DNA of 64,000 bases, taken from Desulforamulus ferrireducens (lineage in GTDB: Bacteria; Bacillota; Desulfotomaculia; Desulfotomaculales; Desulfotomaculaceae). Within the stretch, counting starts at the first letter, position 1. Each line of letters begins with the position of its first letter. The translations under genes and the position numbers were made by a program. Under the pieces are notes generated by a model that worked only from the letters and a program-made list of their open reading frames with translations, had not been told where the DNA came from and did not search any database. The DNA lies in NCBI RefSeq assembly GCF_002005145.1, contig NZ_CP019698.1:2852001-2916000 (forward strand). Direction: 5' to 3'. This document shows, piece by piece, positions 8,910 to 23,788 of the stretch.

Positions 8910-9021
8910 CGGGCTCCCTCCTCTTTAACTGATTTGATTGATTATACCATGAACACCCAAAAAAATTACAGGCATCTTGTCTTAGGTCAGGGAAGGAATT
9001 ACAATAAAATAAAAACCCAAA

Positions 9022-9183
9022 CTCACAGGTGCCCCTGGGGAGAATAGGGAATCAGGTGCAAGTCCTGAACGGTCCCACCACTGTAAACGGGTAGTTGAAC
9101 ACCGGTATATACCACTGGCCCTCGGCTGGGAAGGTAGGTGTCGTCAGCCATGATCCGTGAGTCAGGAGACCTGCCTGTGGAGT
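9022..9183 (+). ncRNA. Cobalamin (B12) riboswitch
   Basis: The leader has the conserved cobalamin aptamer elements in order: AGGTGCCCC, GGGAGAATAGGGAA, GGTGCAAGTCCTGA, ACGGTCCCACCACTGTAA, and the B12 box GCCATGATCCGTGAGTCAGG followed by AGACCTGCC. Flanking CTCACAGG and CCTGTGGAG close P1. It precedes cobT and presumably represses it when adenosylcobalamin is abundant (established for this riboswitch class). Confidence 0.95.
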
Positions 9184-9212
9184 TTTCATCTGAGGATGAT
9201 GGCAAAATCTCT

Positions 9213-10510: not shown

Positions 10511-10687
10511 GGGCAAAACTAACCGGAGTATTAGATCAGCTTAGATAATATACCATTATTCTTGACCTAAGGCAATGTTTTTCTTTGCTAATTTAGGCAT
10601 AAAAAAAGCCTTAATGTATTAATTTCCAATTTTTGATTGTGGACGAAAAAGTAGAAAGCTTGTACAATATACCATAACTCAAAAAAT

Positions 10688-10826
10688 AGGCCGAATCTCC
10701 GGCAGAACCGGAGTACGGGGGATCAAATAACATGGGGTGAATCCGCAAACCTTCCTCGGAGTTGCTCAAAGGTGCGGTAGGGTGCCCTTCAACCCGAACC
10801 CGTCAACTAACCTCGAAGGCCAGCAG
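10688..10826 (+). ncRNA. Cyclic di-AMP riboswitch (ydaO-yuaA class)
   Basis: The leader matches the ydaO/yuaA consensus in order: CCGGCAGAACCGG, ACGGGGGAT, GGGGTGAATCCGC, GCGGTAGGGTGC, and CCCGAACCCGTCAACTAACC with CTCGAAGGC. It ends shortly before the ribosome site of the LysM hydrolase gene. In this class, c-di-AMP binding turns off downstream expression, commonly of cell wall hydrolases and potassium or osmolyte transporters. No clear expression-platform terminator is visible between aptamer and start codon. Confidence 0.93.
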
Positions 10827-10842
10827 AGGGGGAAAAACTCAT

Positions 10843-14699: not shown

Positions 14700-16034
14700 T
14701 TAAAACTTAGTTAGGTATTCCTCTAACTCCCAGGGAGTTACCTGCATACGGTAACGATCCCATTCAATTAGCTTTGCTTCAAGGTAGCGGTTAAAAATAT
14801 GGGGACCCAGGGCTTCCTTAATTACTTCATCGCTTGCCAGAGCTTTAAGAGCTTCCGCAAGGTTTTCCGGTAAACTGGAAATTCCCAGTTCCTGGCGTTC
14901 TTGATAGGTCATTTCATAGATATTTCTATCACAGGGTGGTGGCGGTAGCATGTTCTTCTTAATACCATCAAGCCCCGCCTTCAAGCATACTGCCAAGGCT
15001 AAATAGGGATTACAAGAGGGATCCGGACTACGTAATTCTATGCGCGTGGACATACCCCGTTTGGCCGGAATACGTATCAAAGGACTACGGTTTTGGGAAG
15101 ACCAGGCCACATATACCGGAGCTTCATAGCCGGAAACCAAGCGTTTGTAAGAGTTAACCGTGGGATTAATGATGGCTGTAATGGCATTGATATGATGCAT
15201 TAAGCCCGCAATATAATTCATGCTAACCTTACTCATGCCTATGGGAGCATTGGGATCATAGAAGGCATTTTGACCATCGGTGGTAATTAAGGATTGGTTT
15301 AAATGCATACCTGAACCGGCCATGCCAAAAACAGGTTTGGGCATAAAGGTAGCATGGAGGCCATGGCGTTGGGCAACAGTCCTCACAGCCAATTTAAAAG
15401 TGACTATTTTATCAGCTACATCCAAGGCATCGGAATATTTAAAATCAATTTCGTGCTGTCCCGGTGCCACTTCGTGGTGGGATGCTTCTATTTCAAAACC
15501 CATTTGCTCCAAGGTTAAGACCATGTCCCGCCGGGCATCTTCACCCAGGTCAATGGGTGTCATATCAAAGTAGCTGGCCCGATCATGGGTTTTGGTGGTC
15601 GGACGGCCATCGCTGTCCACATGAAACAGGAAAAATTCAGCCTCAGGACCTACATTCATGGTATAACCCATTTCTGCCGCTTCGGCTATGGCACGACGCA
15701 GTGCATAGCGGGGATCGCCAATAAAGGGTGTGCCATCAGGATTATAAATGTCACAAATCAGACGGGCCACAGCACCTTCCCGGGGTTTCCAGGGAAAAAC
15801 CACAAAGGTGTTGGGATCCGGACGTAGATACATATCGGATTCTTCAATTCTAACAAAGCCTTCAATGGAAGAACCGTCGAACATCATTTCCCCTTCCAGG
15901 GCTTTATCCAACTGTTCCACTGTAATAGCAACGTTTTTTAAGACCCCGAAAATGTCGGTAAACTGCAGCCGGATAAACTTAACATTTAACTCCTTACATA
16001 ATTGCCTAACATCGTCGTTAGTCAGCTTAGCCAC
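14700..16034 (-). CDS. glnA: Glutamine synthetase, type I
   Basis: GlnA condenses ammonium and glutamate to glutamine using ATP, as a cytoplasmic dodecamer. The 444-residue product has every hallmark: 'FDGSSIEGF', 'GPEAEFFLF' (metal-binding Glu), '[11 protein letters not shown]', 'GSGMHLNQS' (metal-binding His), flap motif '[18 protein letters not shown]' and '[17 protein letters not shown]' (metal-binding Glu). The GTG at 16034 after AAAGGTGTG gives the normal N-terminus '[13 protein letters not shown]'; the frame upstream to 16079 is leader. A strong terminator hairpin sits 56 bases before the start, so expression probably depends on antitermination. It is the last gene of the minus-strand nitrogen cluster. 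Confidence 0.97.
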
Positions 16035-16089
16035 AATAACACACCTTTCTTTTAAAATATACTTGCCATAGTATGTCACAAAACAAAGA

Positions 16090-16132
16090 AGCCTACAAAC
16101 AGGTCGCAGATTCTACCACCTGTTTGTAGGCT
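16090..16132 (-). terminator. Leader terminator (attenuator) upstream of glnA
   Basis: AGCCTACAAACAGG (16090-16103) pairs perfectly over 14 bp with CCTGTTTGTAGGCT (16119-16132). On the minus strand the stem is followed by TCTTTGTTTTGT. It lies between the glutamate synthase-like gene and glnA on the same strand, so it either ends the upstream operon or attenuates glnA. Confidence 0.75.
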
Positions 16133-16233
16133 ACGTTGCCTCAGCACACACGGGTGCTTTTCAATTATGGCATTAGTATATATCATCCCAGACCAAAAAT
16201 CCAGTACTTTTAAGTCTAATTAGTTAGTAAGTG

Positions 16234-17811
16234 CTAGGCCAGAATTTTTTCCACCTCTTCGGCATCTGCTTCCATTACATAGCGGATACCGCTAATCTCT
16301 GCTGCTTCAGGGGTTAAGGCCACTAAATCATCCCGGGTAATATACTCCAGGGAGAACTTCCGAGCACCGCACATAAATTGCCGCAGACCTTGAGCCAGAC
16401 GTTCAAAGTAGGTGTAAACACCAATGGCACCCACAGGCAGAGTTGCAAAACGTTCACCCAATTTGCTCTGAAGCACAGCGGTATTGATAAAGATTTGCTC
16501 CAGGGTTTCTCCGTATTTTTTGTATTCGTTAGGCACCTTGCCAGCCTTAACCATTTCACCAATGTTCTTGCCAACCATAGCGGCAGTGAGGGCAGAACGG
16601 GCCATACCGATGGCTTTAACATAGGGAGCGCCCATGGCCAAACCTTTGTACATATGATCTTCCAGAGTAAAACCGCCGGCCATGGCAATGGGCGGCACAT
16701 ATTCACCCTTGGCAGCTAAACGGTCGCAATACTGGGTTAACAGAGACTGGAGATAAACAGTGGGCACACCCCATTCGTTCATCATCCGCCAGGGGCTCAT
16801 GCCGGTACCACCGCCGGCACCATCAACAGTAAGTAAATCAATCTTTGCCATAGAGGCAAACTTCACCGCACGGGCCAGGTCCGCTGGACGGTAGGCACCG
16901 GTCTTTAAGAATACATATTTAGCACCGGCTGCACGCAGTTCTGCAACCCGCTGCATAAAGCTTTCTTCTGAAACCATGCCAATTCTGGAATGGCGTTCAA
17001 ACTCTTTAAAGGCACCTGCTTGGTAAGCAGCCTGCACTTTCTCATCTTCCGGGTCGGGTAAAACGATATAGCCACGGCCTTTTAATTGTAAAGCCCGTTC
17101 CAAACTATATAGTTTTACTTCGCCACCGATATCCTTAGCACCTTGACCCCACTTAATCTCTACCGCTTCTACGCCCAACTTTTCTATAGCATACTCCTGG
17201 ACACCCAGTTTGCTATCTTCCACATTGGCCTGCACAGCAATAAAACCTGCACCCTGGGACCATTCTTGGAAATCTTTAACTCTTCTGGCCAGGTTGGGGG
17301 AATGAACCACCCGGCCATTTTTTATTTCCACATTGGGGTCCATGGCGCAAACATTTTCGCCAATGGCAATACCGACACCGGCAATGGCGCAGCCGGCAGC
17401 CAGATGATCCCAGTTGTCAGCAGCTACATTGGTGGAACCCATGGCAGCTACAACAATGGGAAGATTAAGTTTAAGGTCTTTGTTGGCACCTAAATAGGTT
17501 TCCAAATTAACAGCCGGGAAAATAGCTTTGTCGGAATCGGCTTCTATGCCCTGAGCTCCCACAGCCGTACCCATAATATTAAAGTGAGAGTAATCAACGG
17601 GATAATCCTTTTGGGAAGCAGAGGTGGTTTTGCCGAAGGGTTGGGGATATAGTACTTCCTTACCACGCACGGCGGATTTACCAATTTCACAAAAACCTGG
17701 GCAACCATCAAGGCAGGTGGTGCACATACCGCTGAATGCGCAATAGCTTTCGGGGGTGCGAAGTTTAGTCATGGTTGCCGTGCTGGCATTAATGCCTTTA
17801 CTTAGAGTCAT
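16234..17811 (-). CDS. FMN-binding glutamate synthase domain protein (stand-alone GltB core)
   Basis: This 525-residue protein corresponds to the central FMN-binding (alpha2) part of the glutamate synthase large subunit, with TIM-barrel motifs 'PIVVAAMGSTNVAADNWDHL', 'VEIKWGQGAKDIGGEVKL', 'LLTVDGAGGGTGMSPW' and 'PPIAMAGGFTLEDHMYKGLA'. It lacks the glutaminase domain and carries an N-terminal cysteine cluster 'CAFSGMCTTCLDGCPGFC' that could hold an iron-sulfur centre. In stand-alone form such proteins are called archaeal-type GltB. ATG at 17811 follows AGGAGG by nine bases. It lies between two glnA-family genes, which supports a role in glutamate formation from glutamine. Its electron donor and amidotransferase partner are not in the window. 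Confidence 0.88.
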   Translation of the reverse strand: MTLSKGINASTATMTKLRTPESYCAFSGMCTTCLDGCPGFCEIGKSAVRGKEVLYPQPFGKTTSASQKDYPVDYSHFNIMGTAVGAQGIEADSDKAIFPAVNLETYLGANKDLKLNLPIVVAAMGSTNVAADNWDHLAAGCAIAGVGIAIGENVCAMDPNVEIKNGRVVHSPNLARRVKDFQEWSQGAGFIAVQANVEDSKLGVQEYAIEKLGVEAVEIKWGQGAKDIGGEVKLYSLERALQLKGRGYIVLPDPEDEKVQAAYQAGAFKEFERHSRIGMVSEESFMQRVAELRAAGAKYVFLKTGAYRPADLARAVKFASMAKIDLLTVDGAGGGTGMSPWRMMNEWGVPTVYLQSLLTQYCDRLAAKGEYVPPIAMAGGFTLEDHMYKGLAMGAPYVKAIGMARSALTAAMVGKNIGEMVKAGKVPNEYKKYGETLEQIFINTAVLQSKLGERFATLPVGAIGVYTYFERLAQGLRQFMCGARKFSLEYITRDDLVALTPEAAEISGIRYVMEADAEEVEKILA

Positions 17812-17856: not shown

Positions 17857-19158
17857 CTAATAATTGGTCAGATATCTTTCCAACTCCCAAGGGTGCACAT
17901 GGTCATGGAATTCATCCCATTCTTTACCTTTAGCCTCCAGATAAGATTCAAAGATAAGTTGACCCAAACTCTGCCGGATGAACTCATCCTGTGCCAGGGC
18001 CCACAAGGCTTCACCTAAATTGCGGGGTATCCGCTGGCAACTCTCGTCATCATCCAAGGAAACAGGCAACGGCAAGTTTTCCTTAATACCCTTTAGGCCA
18101 GCCTGCATTACCAGGTCTAAGGCCAGGTAAGGATTGCAGGTAGCATCGGGACTACGCAGGATAATTCTGGTATCACTTCCCCGCTGGGAGGGAATCCTAA
18201 TCATTGATTTTCTGTTGCCTTCCGACCAGCCCCTAAGCACTCGATCCAGCTCTGAATTGCCCAAACGCTTGTAGGAATTAACCAGGGGATTGATTATAGC
18301 GGTTAGGGCATCGGCATGTGTTAACAGCCCGCCAGTGAAGCCACCTGCCAATTTACTAAGTCCGTTGGGGGACTCACTGTCCCACAGAGCATTCTCTGCC
18401 TCCTGGTACAGACATAGACTAAGAGCCATTCCGGAACCATTATGCCCCGGCAAAGGTTTCGGCATAAAGGAAGCATGTAAACCATGCCTTTGGGCTATGG
18501 TTCTCACCACAAACTTAAAGGTGGCAATCTTATCTGCCATACTCAAAGGGTCTTCTTCCCGCAGCACTATTTCATGCTGACCAGGGGAACTCTCGTGGTG
18601 ACTGGAGACAATTTGAAAGCCCATTTCTTCCAGGGTTAGCACCATATCCCGACGGGCATTTTCACCCAGATCCACCGGAGTTAAATCACAAAGCCCTGCA
18701 TTATCGTGAGTTTTGGCAATGGGGTGGCCTTGTTGGTCGGTGTGGAAAAGAAAAAATTCTATCTCCGCACCTACGGTAAGTTCCAAACCACTTTCTTCCC
18801 AGGTAGCCACGGAATCTTTTAGCTTACTACGAACACAGCCTGCATAGGGCTGACCATCGGCAGAAATCATATCACAGATGAGTCGTGCCACGGCACCCTC
18901 ACGGGGACGCCAGGGAAAAACTTGAAAGGTGCGGGGGTCCGGTTTAAGAAAGACATCGGTTTGTCTTGGCCCATATTTCCCTTCCAACACTGCACTATCT
19001 AAGCCAATTTTGTTGGCCAGCGCCCTTTCTAATTCTTCCACAGTGACCGCCACATTCTTAAAATTACCTTGAATATCTGTGAACTGTAAGCGCACAAATT
19101 TGACATGGTATTCCTTTGCTCTTTCAATTACATCCTGTGCTGTGAGTGGCTGCATCAT
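17857..19158 (-). CDS. Glutamine synthetase paralog lacking key active-site residues (probable pseudoenzyme)
   Basis: The 433-residue protein aligns with type I glutamine synthetase along its whole length ('FVRLQFTDIQGNFKNVAVT', '[16 protein letters not shown]', 'GAEIEFFLF', 'PGQHEI', 'NPYLALDLV'). Compared with the intact GlnA two genes downstream, three active-site elements are changed: 'GSGMHLNQS' is 'GSGMALSLC' (metal-ligand His to Ala245), the flap motif 'GYEAP' is 'GNSELD', and 'RIELRSPD' is 'RIILRSPD' (metal-ligand Glu to Ile333). 'FDGSSIEGF' is also replaced by 'LDSAVLEGK'. It probably cannot make glutamine and may sense a ligand or modify the true enzyme; this is inference. ATGATG starts follow GGCGGAGGAGG. 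It has its own promoter and leader terminator. Confidence 0.9.
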   Translation of the reverse strand: MMQPLTAQDVIERAKEYHVKFVRLQFTDIQGNFKNVAVTVEELERALANKIGLDSAVLEGKYGPRQTDVFLKPDPRTFQVFPWRPREGAVARLICDMISADGQPYAGCVRSKLKDSVATWEESGLELTVGAEIEFFLFHTDQQGHPIAKTHDNAGLCDLTPVDLGENARRDMVLTLEEMGFQIVSSHHESSPGQHEIVLREEDPLSMADKIATFKFVVRTIAQRHGLHASFMPKPLPGHNGSGMALSLCLYQEAENALWDSESPNGLSKLAGGFTGGLLTHADALTAIINPLVNSYKRLGNSELDRVLRGWSEGNRKSMIRIPSQRGSDTRIILRSPDATCNPYLALDLVMQAGLKGIKENLPLPVSLDDDESCQRIPRNLGEALWALAQDEFIRQSLGQLIFESYLEAKGKEWDEFHDHVHPWELERYLTNY

Positions 19159-19227: not shown

Positions 19228-19285
19228 AAAAAAAAGACGTCCCAACTAGACCCTTGTAAATTAAAGGTCCAGTTGGGACGTCTTT
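19228..19285 (-). terminator. Leader terminator (attenuator) upstream of the GlnA-like gene
   Basis: AAAGACGTCCCAACT (19233-19247) pairs over 15 bp with AGTTGGGACGTCTTT (19271-19285), with further GACC/GGTC pairing inside. On the minus strand it is followed by TTTTTTTTT. It sits about 30 bases after the predicted transcription start and 70 bases before the GlnA-like start codon, directly behind an ANTAR regulator gene; ANTAR proteins act by antitermination at such sites. Confidence 0.85.
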
Positions 19286-19314
19286 GCCCCAAAAAGTATT
19301 AACCTGTAGTTTGT

Positions 19315-19343
19315 AATATACATTTATTTATTAACCCAGTCAA
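19315..19343 (-). promoter_or_regulatory. Sigma-A promoter of the GlnA-like/GltB operon
   Basis: On the minus strand TTGACT (19338-19343) and TATATT (19315-19320) are separated by exactly 17 bases. The transcript would begin just ahead of the leader terminator and after the ANTAR gene stop codon, so the leader is short and dominated by the terminator. Confidence 0.75.
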
Positions 19344-19389: not shown

Positions 19390-19968
19390 TTACCCTTTAG
19401 ACAGGCTGTTGATCACTAGCTGTGCAATTTTGGCCAGGGAACAACAACGATCCATACTTAATTTTTGCAAATGACGATGGGCTGTTGCTTCACTAAACCC
19501 CTTTTTCTCTATTAAAAGACATTTGGCTTTTTCAATCAGCTTTCGTTCTTCCAGTTCTTTCTTTAAGCTTTTATTCTCCTTCGACAGCCGGGTTAGGCGC
19601 TTAAAAATACCCATGGCCATTTCCAGGGTAGGAATTAAGCTGGTTTCATCCACCGGTTTTAATAAATATCCTAATACCGCTGAAAACTTGGCCTCCTCAA
19701 TAATGTCTCTGTCATTTTGGGAAGTAATGAGCACAACCGGGGCCAGATGGTGTTCTTCAATGACCCGAGCAATCTCTAAACCCTTACTGCCCGGGAGCTT
19801 TGCCTCCATAATAATAATATCCGGCTCGGTTTGAAAAGCTGCCTGGAGGGTGCTCTGACTATCTTCTGTTTCTGCAGCCACCAAATAACCATGTTGTGTC
19901 AGCAAGTCTTTCAATCTTTTGCGGTAGTCTTGATCTGGGTCCGCCAGCAGAACTCGCTTGCCAAACAT
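19390..19968 (-). CDS. ANTAR-domain response regulator (nitrogen cluster)
   Basis: A receiver domain (residues 1-115) is joined by a short coiled segment ('RLSKENKSLKKELEERKLI') to a C-terminal ANTAR RNA-binding domain (about 135-190, 'IEKAKCLLIEKKGFSEATAH'). ANTAR proteins bind paired stem-loops in leader RNA and block terminators. The usual phospho-acceptor Asp is Glu55 in 'IIIMEAKLPG', so normal phosphorylation is unlikely; 'ITSQND' and 'LLKPVDE' are retained. ATG at 19968 follows GGTGGGGGG and is preferred to the in-frame GTG at 19992. It directly precedes the attenuated GlnA-like operon. In clostridia a homologous antiterminator (NitR) adjoins glnA, which supports a nitrogen role. Confidence 0.88.
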   Translation of the reverse strand: MFGKRVLLADPDQDYRKRLKDLLTQHGYLVAAETEDSQSTLQAAFQTEPDIIIMEAKLPGSKGLEIARVIEEHHLAPVVLITSQNDRDIIEEAKFSAVLGYLLKPVDETSLIPTLEMAMGIFKRLTRLSKENKSLKKELEERKLIEKAKCLLIEKKGFSEATAHRHLQKLSMDRCCSLAKIAQLVINSLSKG

Positions 19969-20079
19969 CTGATTCCCCCCACCCAAAGACACTATTGCTT
20001 CTCTATAATAATCCTGTCCAGGGGAAGATGTCTATTTATTTTCATCCATTCTTTAATATTTCCACAAATTACCTGGTTG

Positions 20080-20739
20080 CTATCTAAAATTTTCTTTCTC
20101 AAACTTAGCCATTTTATCCCGTTGTCCAAAAACAACAACCTTATCGCCATCCTCCAAGATGGTAGAGGCCTTGGGCTGAATGGTTTCATTGCCTCGATAG
20201 ACCAACATGATGGACACACCATAACGTCTGGGAATATCCATATCCTTAAAGGTTTTCCCCGTAAAACCTTTACCTATCTCCATCTGCTCCACCACAAAAC
20301 CTTGGGGTAATTCCAACAGGTCTATCACTGCATCGTTGCCAATCACATGAGCCAGGCGACGACCAATATCCCGCTCCGGGAAGACAATCCTATCCGCCCC
20401 CATTTTAGTTAGAACATTACCCCTTCTTTGGGAGGATGCCTTGACCGAGACCACAATCCCAGCTTCTTTTAAAATGTGGGTGGCGATTAACGCTCCTTCA
20501 AAGTCCTGGCCAATGGCCACCACAGCCTCATCAAAATTCTTTTCTCCCACAATTTTGCTTAACTCTTCATCATCCTCGCCCACATCGAGGATAGCCCCGG
20601 AAACAATCATATCTCTCACAGAATCTAAAGCTTCCTCGTCTAAATCAATGGCAAAAATATCGTGACCCTTTTCAAACAGACCTTCGATCACCCCACGACC
20701 AAAACGGCCCACACCAATTACCAAGACCGACTTTTTCAT
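20080..20739 (-). CDS. ktrA: KtrA-type potassium uptake regulatory subunit (RCK)
   Basis: KtrA forms the cytoplasmic octameric ring that gates the KtrB potassium channel according to bound nucleotide. The protein shows an RCK_N Rossmann domain with 'VIGVGRFGRGVIEGLFEKG' and acidic 'AIDLDEEALD', followed by an RCK_C (TrkA_C) domain from about residue 140 ('VVEQMEIGKGFTGKTF'). ATG at 20739 lies after AAAGGATGG and gives 219 residues; the frame from 20751 starts inside the ribosome site. It lies 15 bases after the KtrB gene and is surely co-transcribed. RCK_C domains can bind c-di-AMP (known for the family), which may matter since a c-di-AMP riboswitch occurs elsewhere in the window. Confidence 0.92.
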   Translation of the reverse strand: MKKSVLVIGVGRFGRGVIEGLFEKGHDIFAIDLDEEALDSVRDMIVSGAILDVGEDDEELSKIVGEKNFDEAVVAIGQDFEGALIATHILKEAGIVVSVKASSQRRGNVLTKMGADRIVFPERDIGRRLAHVIGNDAVIDLLELPQGFVVEQMEIGKGFTGKTFKDMDIPRRYGVSIMLVYRGNETIQPKASTILEDGDKVVVFGQRDKMAKFEKENFR

Positions 20740-20754
20740 AAGCCAAACCATCCT

Positions 20755-22062
20755 TTAACCAATTAATATGTCTTCCTTTAAGTAGCGCAAACGACGTTGT
20801 TCTTGCTTGGTTAAGAAAATCACCAGAGATAGTACTCCTATCCGACCAATAAACATTAAAATTGTAAGCAAAATTTGTCCAAAGGGTGATAACTCTCCGG
20901 TAATGCCCATGGAGAGACCAACAGTGGCCAGGGCAGAGACTACTTCAAAAAGCACCGGCATAAAGGGTAATTTTTCTATGACCATAATGAGCAAGGTGCT
21001 AAAGCTCACCAACAGCATGGCAATGACCGCTACCGTAAAGGCCTTGGTCACACTTTCCGGAGCAATTTCCCGTTCCCACAGCACCACTTCTTTTCTACCC
21101 CTGGCAATGGCCCAAATTGCCAAAATAATGGTACCTACTGTGGTGGTTTTAATTCCACCACCCACAGATCCGGGACTGGCACCAATAAACATCATCATGA
21201 TCATGAGAAAAATAAAAGGTTCCGTCCAGTTGTTCACAGCAACCGTGGTAAACCCTGCTGTTCTGGTTACCGCCTGAAAGAGACTCTCTACTATTTTGCC
21301 CGGTAAATCCAGGTCAGCCAACAATCGCTGGTACTCGCTGAAAAAGTAAAAGATAGTCCCAATGAAAATAATCATACCAGTAACCCAAAACACTAACCGA
21401 CTATGCAAACTCATTCTCCGCCACTTACGCAGCACCAGGATTTCCTGTAACACCACATAACCCAGGCTGCCCAGAAATATTAATACCATATAAACACAAA
21501 GTAAGGCCGGATAGGAACGGTAGATGATCAGGCTTTGTCCTGTTACATCTAATCCCACTCCGTTAAAGGCACTGACAGATTGAAAGATAACAAAGAATAG
21601 TCCTTCCCCTATCCCCTTATCCCAGAGATTGGGGGTAAGAAAAGCCATAAGCAGGGCACCCACGCCTTCAATAATCAGTGTTAGGATAATAATACTCTTA
21701 ACCAGACGCAAAATACCCGCCATACTAAAGGTATTACGATCCTGAACTATCAGGGCCCGATGGGCCAGCTGTATTCTCAAGCCCAGAGCCATAAAAAAGA
21801 TGGTGGTGAAAACCATCAGTCCTAAACCGCCAATTTGCATCAAGATAAGTAAGACTGTTTGTCCAAACATTGTCCAGTGGCTGGCGGTGGGGACTACAGT
21901 AAGCCCGGTCACCGTTAAAGCGGATACGGCCGTAAACCATGCCTGTAAAAAACTTGTCTGACCGGTGGCAGCCCCTGGCAACATTAGCAGCAAAGTGCCC
22001 AATAGGCCAACCGCCCCATAACTAAAAATTAAGATTTCTGCTGGTCTAAATTTATTGTTCAA
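20755..22062 (-). CDS. ktrB: KtrB-type potassium uptake membrane subunit (TrkH family)
   Basis: An integral membrane protein of 435 residues with the four repeated M1-P-M2 units of the Trk/Ktr family. Selectivity-loop segments are visible, such as 'TGLTVVPTASHW', 'FNGVGLDVTGQS', 'ITRTAGFTTVAVN'-like 'TRTAGFTTVAVNNW' and 'SALATVGLSMGITGELS', each centred on a conserved Gly. It imports K+ with Na+ coupling in characterised homologs. The start is TTG at 22062, seven bases behind GGAG. It is the first gene of a ktrB-ktrA operon and diverges from tatA across a 190-base intergenic region in which I saw no riboswitch. Confidence 0.92.
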   Translation of the reverse strand: MNNKFRPAEILIFSYGAVGLLGTLLLMLPGAATGQTSFLQAWFTAVSALTVTGLTVVPTASHWTMFGQTVLLILMQIGGLGLMVFTTIFFMALGLRIQLAHRALIVQDRNTFSMAGILRLVKSIIILTLIIEGVGALLMAFLTPNLWDKGIGEGLFFVIFQSVSAFNGVGLDVTGQSLIIYRSYPALLCVYMVLIFLGSLGYVVLQEILVLRKWRRMSLHSRLVFWVTGMIIFIGTIFYFFSEYQRLLADLDLPGKIVESLFQAVTRTAGFTTVAVNNWTEPFIFLMIMMMFIGASPGSVGGGIKTTTVGTIILAIWAIARGRKEVVLWEREIAPESVTKAFTVAVIAMLLVSFSTLLIMVIEKLPFMPVLFEVVSALATVGLSMGITGELSPFGQILLTILMFIGRIGVLSLVIFLTKQEQRRLRYLKEDILIG

Positions 22063-22494: not shown

Positions 22495-22654
22495 ATTTGC
22501 CCTGCCAAACCCGCTTTCCCCTGTCATACATGCCCAGCTCCATCATATCTATAAAATGTATAGTGTCACAACGGCGTGACCCTTCTTTAAGAGGATCAAA
22601 CTACTTCAGGTATTGTGGTGCTGGTTTTTATTTTTTTTACAAGGGGGTAAAAAA

Positions 22655-23788
22655 ATGGGTAAAGGTAAAATTAAAAAGGTCTTCCCCGGGGGCAATACCG
22701 CCCAAGGTTTCTTCTCTTATTACCAGTATATGATAGAACCAAACGCTACCAGAATTTTTTGTATCAAAGGTGGACCGGGAGTGGGTAAGTCCACTTTTAT
22801 GCGTTATATTGGCGAACAAATGGTGGAGCGGGGCTACGACATCGAGCATCATTGCTGCTCCTCGGATAATGGTTCACTGGACGGCGTGGTCATCCCAGCC
22901 ATTAAGGTAGCTCTTTTGGATGGCACCGCTCCCCACGTGGTTGATCCCAAAAACCCCGGGGCAGTGGATGAGATTATTCACTTAGGCGATTATTGGCAGG
23001 AGGATAAACTGCGGGCCAATAAAGAGGCAATTTTAAAATCTAACCGTAGGGTAGGACGTCTGTTTAAAATTGCTTACCATCAACTGGCTGAAGCCAAAAC
23101 CATTAAGGATGAACTGGACAGTTACTATGCCGAAGCCATCAATATGGGTGGTGTTCATGGCATTATTCATAATATTGCCGAAGACATATTGGAGGATGTG
23201 ATGGAGGATGGCCAATTACAGTTTGCCACAGAACCTAAGGACAGACACCTCTTTGCCACCGCCTTTACTCCCCAGGGGCAAACACATCACCTGGAAACCA
23301 TCTTAGCAGACCTGGAAAAACTGTATTTTATTACCGGCGAAGCCAGTGCCATTGGTTCCCAGGTGGTGGGTACCCTGGCCAAAGCTATGCATATACACGG
23401 TCTGGATACCGAGGTTTACCATTGTGCCTTTGAGCCAACGGCAGTGGACTTGGTTATTATGCCCGCCCTGAAAATAGGCATCATGAAGGATATACCCGGT
23501 ATAGATTTTAAACTGCAGGACATTTCAGGCCTGAGGAAAATTAAAATTAGGGATCTTAATCAATATCTAGACCAGTCTGTGCTGGCGGTTTACGATAAGG
23601 AAATTAAATGTGCCCGGGAGCGTCTTCACTCGGCCCTCTGCCGAGCCATAGGTTATATTGCCGCTGCCAAGGCAGAACATGATATTATGGAACAATATTA
23701 TATCCCCGCCATGGACTTCGAGGCAATTAACGCTAAGCGGGGGGAAATTTTAGCCAGGATCTTAAAATATGCCGAAGAGTTTAAATAA
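22655..23788 (+). CDS. PRK06851-type P-loop ATPase, function unknown
   Basis: A 377-residue protein with an N-terminal Walker A 'GGPGVGKST' (residues 39-47) and the conserved 'FFSYYQYMIEPNATRIFCIK' lead-in of the PRK06851 family. The C-terminal half repeats parts of the fold ('FEPTAVDLVIMPALKIG'). The family is found mostly in spore-forming Firmicutes; its role is not established. ATG at 22655 follows AAGGGGG; the frame from 22613 has no ribosome site. It is a single-gene unit with a long leader of about 160 bases after tatA's terminator and its own terminator downstream. Confidence 0.82.
   Translation: MGKGKIKKVFPGGNTAQGFFSYYQYMIEPNATRIFCIKGGPGVGKSTFMRYIGEQMVERGYDIEHHCCSSDNGSLDGVVIPAIKVALLDGTAPHVVDPKNPGAVDEIIHLGDYWQEDKLRANKEAILKSNRRVGRLFKIAYHQLAEAKTIKDELDSYYAEAINMGGVHGIIHNIAEDILEDVMEDGQLQFATEPKDRHLFATAFTPQGQTHHLETILADLEKLYFITGEASAIGSQVVGTLAKAMHIHGLDTEVYHCAFEPTAVDLVIMPALKIGIMKDIPGIDFKLQDISGLRKIKIRDLNQYLDQSVLAVYDKEIKCARERLHSALCRAIGYIAAAKAEHDIMEQYYIPAMDFEAINAKRGEILARILKYAEEFK

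Follow-up and report, generated by a model that had tools for sequence, protein, structure and literature searches.

A glutamine synthetase-like candidate sensor paired with an ANTAR protein and a leader RNA ahead of glutamate synthase in Desulforamulus ferrireducens

The locus and its glutamine synthetase paralogue

We examined a gene cluster in a window of 64,000 nucleotides (the whole stretch of DNA that was analysed) from the closed, 3.24-Mb genome of Desulforamulus ferrireducens, in which the genes on the minus strand run in the order TrkH, TrkA, ANTAR-a, psGS (pseudo-glutamine synthetase), a glutamate-synthase FMN-domain protein and canonical GlnA.

20080..22062, minus strand: TrkA/TrkH potassium uptake genes, 5' of ANTAR-a, also found in a close relative
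19390..19992, minus strand: ANTAR-a, with a degenerate receiver domain and an ANTAR RNA-binding domain
17857..19158, minus strand: psGS, 433 aa, type I glutamine synthetase (GS) fold with the ammonium site and the n2 metal site disrupted
16234..17811, minus strand: glutamate synthase FMN-domain protein (GltB2/archaeal type), 3' of psGS on the same strand
14700..16079, minus strand: canonical GlnA (GlnA1)

The potassium uptake genes are probably unrelated to the psGS system. No terminator-like site was found in the 45-bp gap between psGS and the glutamate-synthase gene. Elsewhere in the window, the plus strand has a cobalamin riboswitch (9010-9192) before a CobT-like gene, and a c-di-AMP riboswitch (10679-10837) before a gene for a LysM-containing, SleB-like protein.

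The initial annotation had reported that this GlnA-like protein has GSGMAL for the GSGMHL of canonical GS, RIILRSPD for RIELRSPD and GNSELD at the flap motif, and we recovered all three replacements (in the motifs NGSGMALSL, NSYKRLGNSELDRVLRGWS and TRIILRSPD) in a reading frame that lies beside a normal GlnA with GSGMHL, SGYEAP and RIELRSPD. Its further reading, that the remaining fold is kept, is supported by Pfam, which detects both GS domains, the beta-grasp N domain and the catalytic domain (E 2e-96 and 2e-21), and by an AlphaFold2 model (mean pLDDT 88) that retains the GS fold and matches GS structures with a Z score of 53 and an rmsd of 1.7 over 410 residues. Against TIGR00653, the curated equivalog model of type I GS, psGS scores 363.3 bits, below the cut-off of 429.15, which the neighbouring GlnA passes at 578 bits, and with NF045547, the NCBIfam model of gamma-glutamylputrescine synthetase, it reaches 274 bits, far under the cut-off of 650. 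The host genome holds two further type I GS genes, the adjacent GlnA1 and the distant GlnA3 (53-55% identity). The changes in psGS are not the product of chance or sequencing error, because the same motifs are shared by close relatives (75-89% identity) and dN/dS within the genus is 0.045-0.064.

To follow the active site across the clade we aligned 56 psGS rows with 74 canonical GS from the same loci, with residues numbered as in Salmonella GS, the sequence of which served only for this numbering. In the window psGS, Ser53 is replaced by Val, His269 by Ala, Glu327 by Leu and Glu357 by Ile. Ser53 and Glu327 are part of the ammonium site of GS (PMC8998196). Two of the three n2 ligands, His269 and Glu357, are gone; the third, Glu129, is present, as are all three n1 ligands (Glu131, Glu212, and Glu220) and the glutamate-anchoring residues G265, R321 and R359. 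The earlier statement that the protein has lost its metal ligands is thus correct for His269 and Glu357 of the n2 site, but not for Glu129 or the intact n1 site. The flap Glu327 is absent from 55 of the 56 clade members, where it is mostly replaced by Leu. Ser53 is replaced (V/A/I) in every psGS and Glu357 (I/V/L/A/T) in 54, and none of these three residues is lost in any canonical GS. His269 is kept in 27 of the 56 and is Ala in the host genus. D50, E212, G265, R321 and R339 are retained throughout, R359 in 55 rows, R344 in 54 and E131 in 51 (with Asp in 4). Because columns that are invariant in canonical GS are retained in psGS at a mean of only 75%, conservation of the residues that anchor glutamate and phosphate is above average.

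The check proposed at the outset, whether the altered paralogues form a conserved clade with common neighbours, gave a clear answer: psGS is a single, long-lived clade across the Desulfotomaculum/Pelotomaculum order (SH-aLRT 100), of which pairing with an ANTAR gene is a defining trait. A single change accounts for the loss of the flap Glu on a GS tree of 125 rows (support 100; about 39 changes on average after shuffling), as it does on a mixture-model tree of 93 rows from which the trait columns had been removed (support 100). The order of loss on the tree is the ammonium site first, then Glu357, then His269 in several lineages; the basal members L116, L125, L237, L238 and L240 keep both Glu357 and His269, and the loss of His269 is recent and lineage-specific. 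Other flapless GS paralogues that have Glu357 occur in different contexts (L062:13821-15155 and L103:7577-8893) and may be a separate functional group.

The ANTAR partner and the leader RNAs

The gene next to psGS had been pointed out as that of an ANTAR antiterminator, and this adjacency recurs: 48 psGS loci have an ANTAR gene immediately upstream in the same orientation, and psGS is paired with its own ANTAR subfamily across the clade. The domain in ANTAR-a is recognized by PF03861 (E 5.6e-20). A second, distinct subfamily (ANTAR-b) lies in the same order directly upstream of the active GlnA3 in 39 loci, and across a 108-protein ANTAR tree there are two switches between a flapless and a canonical GS partner, compared with 35 in shuffles. 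The receiver of ANTAR-a has lost its second acidic residue and has Glu at the phospho-acceptor position; receivers of both subfamilies are degenerate, the second acidic residue being replaced in the rows shown and the acceptor being D, E, S, Q or others. Phosphorylation of the ANTAR-a receiver is, from these residues, unlikely, and since such a receiver cannot be phosphorylated normally, ANTAR-a would be expected to come under protein-protein control. A passage in Ramesh et al. (PMC3369931) states that pseudo-receiver ANTAR proteins may be regulated by a modulator protein. Beyond the order, ANTAR genes adjoin canonical GS genes in Clostridia, Lachnospiraceae, Elusimicrobia and Spirochaetales (L143, L150, L153, L161, L169, L175, L184, L187 and others), hinting at a general link between GS and ANTAR proteins.

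Two leaders in the window carry hairpin elements, one ahead of psGS and one ahead of GlnA1 (whole leader 16080..16158).

19315..19343, minus strand: sigma-70-like promoter TTGACT-17-TATATT between ANTAR-a and psGS (consensus match only)
19273..19292, minus strand: antiterminator hairpin TTGGGGC[AAAGAC]GTCCCAA, ANTAR P2 type, class a, with a conserved G.U pair
19228..19282, minus strand: intrinsic terminator with a 20-pair stem followed by T8; overlaps the antiterminator hairpin at its 3' arm
16158-16143, minus strand: GlnA1 leader, upstream hairpin AGCAC/GTGCT
16141-16128, minus strand: GlnA1 leader, class-b hairpin AGGC[AACGTA]GCCT
16132-16080, minus strand: GlnA1 leader, terminator

In the psGS leader the 3' arm of the hairpin doubles as the 5' arm of the terminator. 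The full leader folds at -38.7 kcal/mol (z -8.0) with the terminator formed, and when the transcript is ended before the terminator 3' arm the hairpin forms instead (-10.2 kcal/mol). A terminator is present in 42 of the 54 psGS leaders long enough for the test, and in 36 of these 42 it is overlapped by an A1/G4 hexaloop hairpin (P2), a combination never seen in dinucleotide shuffles. When the leaders are lined up at the hairpin, all 44 psGS leaders have G.U as their third stem pair and all 44 GlnA leaders have G-C, which separates class a, with the consensus GGGC[AAnGRn]GUCC, from the class-b motif (GCCC/U) that precedes active GS genes and asnB. In a hand-transcribed alignment of the leaders, the outer pairs of P2 vary on both sides, above slid controls; support from shuffling is only moderate (8 and 3 of 500), as the core stem does not vary. 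A gathering-threshold Rfam search of the window returned no ANTAR-type family, and the hairpin element was detected by pattern.

The two classes also differ in the first hairpin of the dual-hairpin ANTAR target (P1), which occurs in 7/44 psGS leaders, against 5.8 expected from shuffles, whereas a P1 with a stem of five or more is found in 17/42 GlnA-class leaders, against 0.3 in shuffles. A strict A1/G4 dual-hairpin search had given the psGS leader a "first hairpin" that overlapped the predicted -10 box, and the dual-hairpin description was rejected. As the first hairpin is absent, recognition of the class-a leader by ANTAR-a, though predicted, is not assured.

The hairpin-plus-terminator pattern of class a has 45 matches in 113 genomes of the order, compared with none for a reversed-pattern control. 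Where the downstream gene was read (30 sites), 29 sites stand before psGS or before glutamate-synthase genes of three kinds: 21 before psGS; 3 directly before a glutamate-synthase gene, two of them in psGS-free genomes; 4 before a separate operon for an Fe-S protein, an oxidoreductase, an amidotransferase and glutamate-synthase subunits; and 1 before gltB/gltD, the subunit names being our own readings of the sequences. The last site lies ahead of an ORF of 80 aa. The psGS leader contains the single exact class-a core of the host genome, in which the class-b core occurs at GlnA1, at GlnA3, at a divergent asnB and at two sites within coding genes. Relaxing the class-a pattern by one mismatch gave 36 matches in this genome and 38 in controls, mostly chance, and only exact or terminator-coupled matches were used. 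A search of the host genome with the Fe-S protein did not recover the accessory Fe-S/amidotransferase GOGAT operon. The two ANTAR-GS pairs thus appear to be linked to different genes, one to glutamate synthase, the other to both GS and asparagine synthase, and from gene order we infer that class a is the target of ANTAR-a and class b that of ANTAR-b. At L079 and G000:C1:1841117-1843400, ANTAR-b and the active GlnA3 are divergent from asnB, with class-b elements before both asnB and GlnA3. At L277, L278 and L279 a P-loop ATPase like that encoded at 22613-23788 of the window lies directly upstream of a class-a-controlled second glutamate-synthase operon.

In some genomes psGS itself has been lost. 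In two members of one genus (G038 and G039) psGS is missing, and the leader and GltS come after ANTAR-a; a third genome (G098) retains only fragments of psGS at the locus, ANTAR-a, leader and GltS persisting. The loci L088, L225 and L229 are from genomes of this kind, with ANTAR-a, a class-a leader and glutamate synthase present and psGS lost or in fragments. Since ANTAR-a, the leader and GltS outlast it, psGS is not strictly required; this dispensability fits a negative regulator but also a mere accessory that can be spared. The persistence of ANTAR-a and its RNA weakly suggests that psGS is a modulator, more likely a negative one.

A proposed role for psGS and its alternatives

On balance we lean toward the reading that psGS has given up catalysis and now serves ANTAR-a as a ligand-sensing partner, through which glutamate synthase is controlled. 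Free ANTAR-a would bind the nascent GGGC[AAnGRn]GUCC hairpin and block the overlapping terminator, allowing transcription of psGS and of the glutamate-synthase gene downstream. The substrate pocket of psGS, which is intact, may bind glutamate or, with lower probability, glutamine; in one of its ligand states psGS would sequester ANTAR-a and let the terminator form, so that glutamate synthase would be under end-product control. There is precedent in the NasS/NasT pair, in which the ANTAR protein is held by its partner when the latter carries no ligand (PMC3795266). Our choice of ligand is a guess based on the residues that psGS retains. Feedback-inhibited GS uses the flap Glu and the Arg of the D50 loop to bind glutamine and to display a surface for GlnR (PMC9249791); in the window psGS these residues are Leu and Gly, and with both lost psGS cannot copy that mode and glutamate is the likelier ligand. 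Of the glutamine/glutamate sensor first suggested, the ANTAR pairing and the kept glutamate site speak for a sensor, while the missing glutamine contacts shift the choice toward glutamate. With the residues that anchor glutamate still in place, and glutamate the product of the controlled genes, a glutamate-reading silencer is the most economical model.

That psGS is instead a regulatory subunit in mixed rings with GlnA1 or GlnA3, tuning their activity, with the ANTAR link reflecting shared nitrogen regulation, seems to us unlikely. The GS fold is kept throughout psGS, GS active sites are formed between subunits and D50, which comes from the neighbouring subunit, is retained in 56/56 psGS, GlnA3 and GlnA1 share one cluster in most genomes, and accounts in PMC5201418 and PMC3663545 include catalytically dead paralogues that activate enzymes. 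The fixed partner of psGS, however, is ANTAR-a and not GlnA, as in G007, where ANTAR-a, psGS and GltS stay together and GlnA3 and GlnA1 are elsewhere, and the RNA classes divide the loci into psGS-glutamate synthase on one side and GlnA-asnB on the other.

We think it quite improbable that psGS is still an enzyme, either a gamma-glutamyl ligase for another amine, like Streptomyces GlnA2/GlnA3, or one that catalyses a partial reaction. Its earliest changes were limited to the ammonium site (S53 and E327), as in the polyamine ligases (PMC8998196), and basal members keep E357 and mostly H269, but the main clade is without the n2 ligand E357 and several lineages are without H269, whereas GlnA2/GlnA3 keep their metal, ATP and glutamate sites. 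The low score with the gamma-glutamylputrescine synthetase model argues against such an activity, as do conserved neighbours that are regulatory and not catabolic.

A co-activator or chaperone needed by ANTAR-a, in place of a silencer, would have a parallel in feedback-inhibited GS, which activates GlnR by binding its C-tail (PMC9249791). We hold this to be highly unlikely, as ANTAR-a and its RNA target persist after psGS loss, which would not be expected if ANTAR-a depended on psGS, and the flap Glu and D50-loop Arg used by feedback-inhibited GS are gone. Finally, a relaxed or decaying glnA duplicate without function is scarcely credible and was rejected on the dN/dS of about 0.05: although copies are broken in G002 and G086 and reduced to remnants in G098, the replacements recur across families and are not the scattered random substitutions that the initial annotation had named as a sign of decay, the partner and leader are conserved, and in G002 the neighbouring glnA and gltS frames are broken too, so that the broken psGS there points to poor sequence. 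In that stretch of G002 (L076) the ANTAR frame is broken along with those of GS and glutamate synthase, which suggests poor sequence rather than decay of psGS only.

Relation to known systems

The initial annotation had raised the prospect of an undescribed nitrogen switch. Part of this was anticipated in 2012, when ANTAR RNA elements were predicted at glutamate-synthase and other nitrogen genes in the ANTAR RNA regulons of Desulfotomaculum reducens and D. acetoxidans (Ramesh 2012, PMC3369931); the portions of that paper concerned with these regulons make no mention of a pseudo-GS or of two element classes with two ANTAR subfamilies. In the openly licensed literature we found no bacterial GS pseudoenzyme with an ANTAR protein, and within that literature the pseudo-GS partner appears to be undescribed. 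In Clostridium saccharobutylicum, the ANTAR protein NitR regulates GS/GOGAT genes (PMC6316151 citing Stutz 2007), and the section of PMC6316151 that covers NitR describes no pseudo-GS and calls the signal input not fully understood. The present locus offers a candidate sensor for nitrogen status at such clostridial ANTAR-regulated GS/GOGAT genes, along with a defined target RNA, a control pair provided by nature in ANTAR-b and active GlnA3, and natural losses of psGS, which makes the question testable with purified proteins and one leader RNA. We tentatively go further and suggest that psGS could be a third kind of ANTAR silencer, in which a GS pseudoenzyme would sense glutamate and switch an antiterminator of its own, acting through a single-hairpin RNA target to control glutamate synthase, as a specialized offshoot of a wider, unrecognized rule whereby GS paralogues are the input of neighbouring ANTAR proteins across Clostridia and beyond; we would put this somewhat short of an even chance. 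If true, it would be a clear bacterial example of an enzyme of central metabolism recast as a dedicated sensor.

Among GS relatives, Streptomyces GlnA2/GlnA3, the gamma-glutamylpolyamine synthetases, are also paralogues with an altered ammonium site, but they are active and keep their metal, ATP and glutamate sites (PMC8998196), in contrast to the main psGS clade, which has lost Glu357. The GS-GlnR and GS-TnrA systems of Bacilli share with psGS the proposed use of the GS fold to report a metabolite to a regulator encoded nearby. There, however, the GS is active and the regulator binds DNA, whereas here a presumably inactive GS relative is paired with a predicted RNA-binding antiterminator, and the contacts that B. 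subtilis GS makes with glutamine and GlnR are not conserved in psGS. A further likeness is to AmiC-AmiR and NasS-NasT, which also combine an ANTAR protein with a degenerate receiver, an adjacent gene for a putative metabolite-binding partner and a terminator in the leader of a nitrogen operon (PMC3795266). The leaders of that type have two hairpins, where the psGS leader has one that is recognizable, and the AmiC and NasS silencers are periplasmic-binding-protein-like sensors, whereas the partner here, a candidate silencer, is a predicted pseudoenzyme with the fold of GS.
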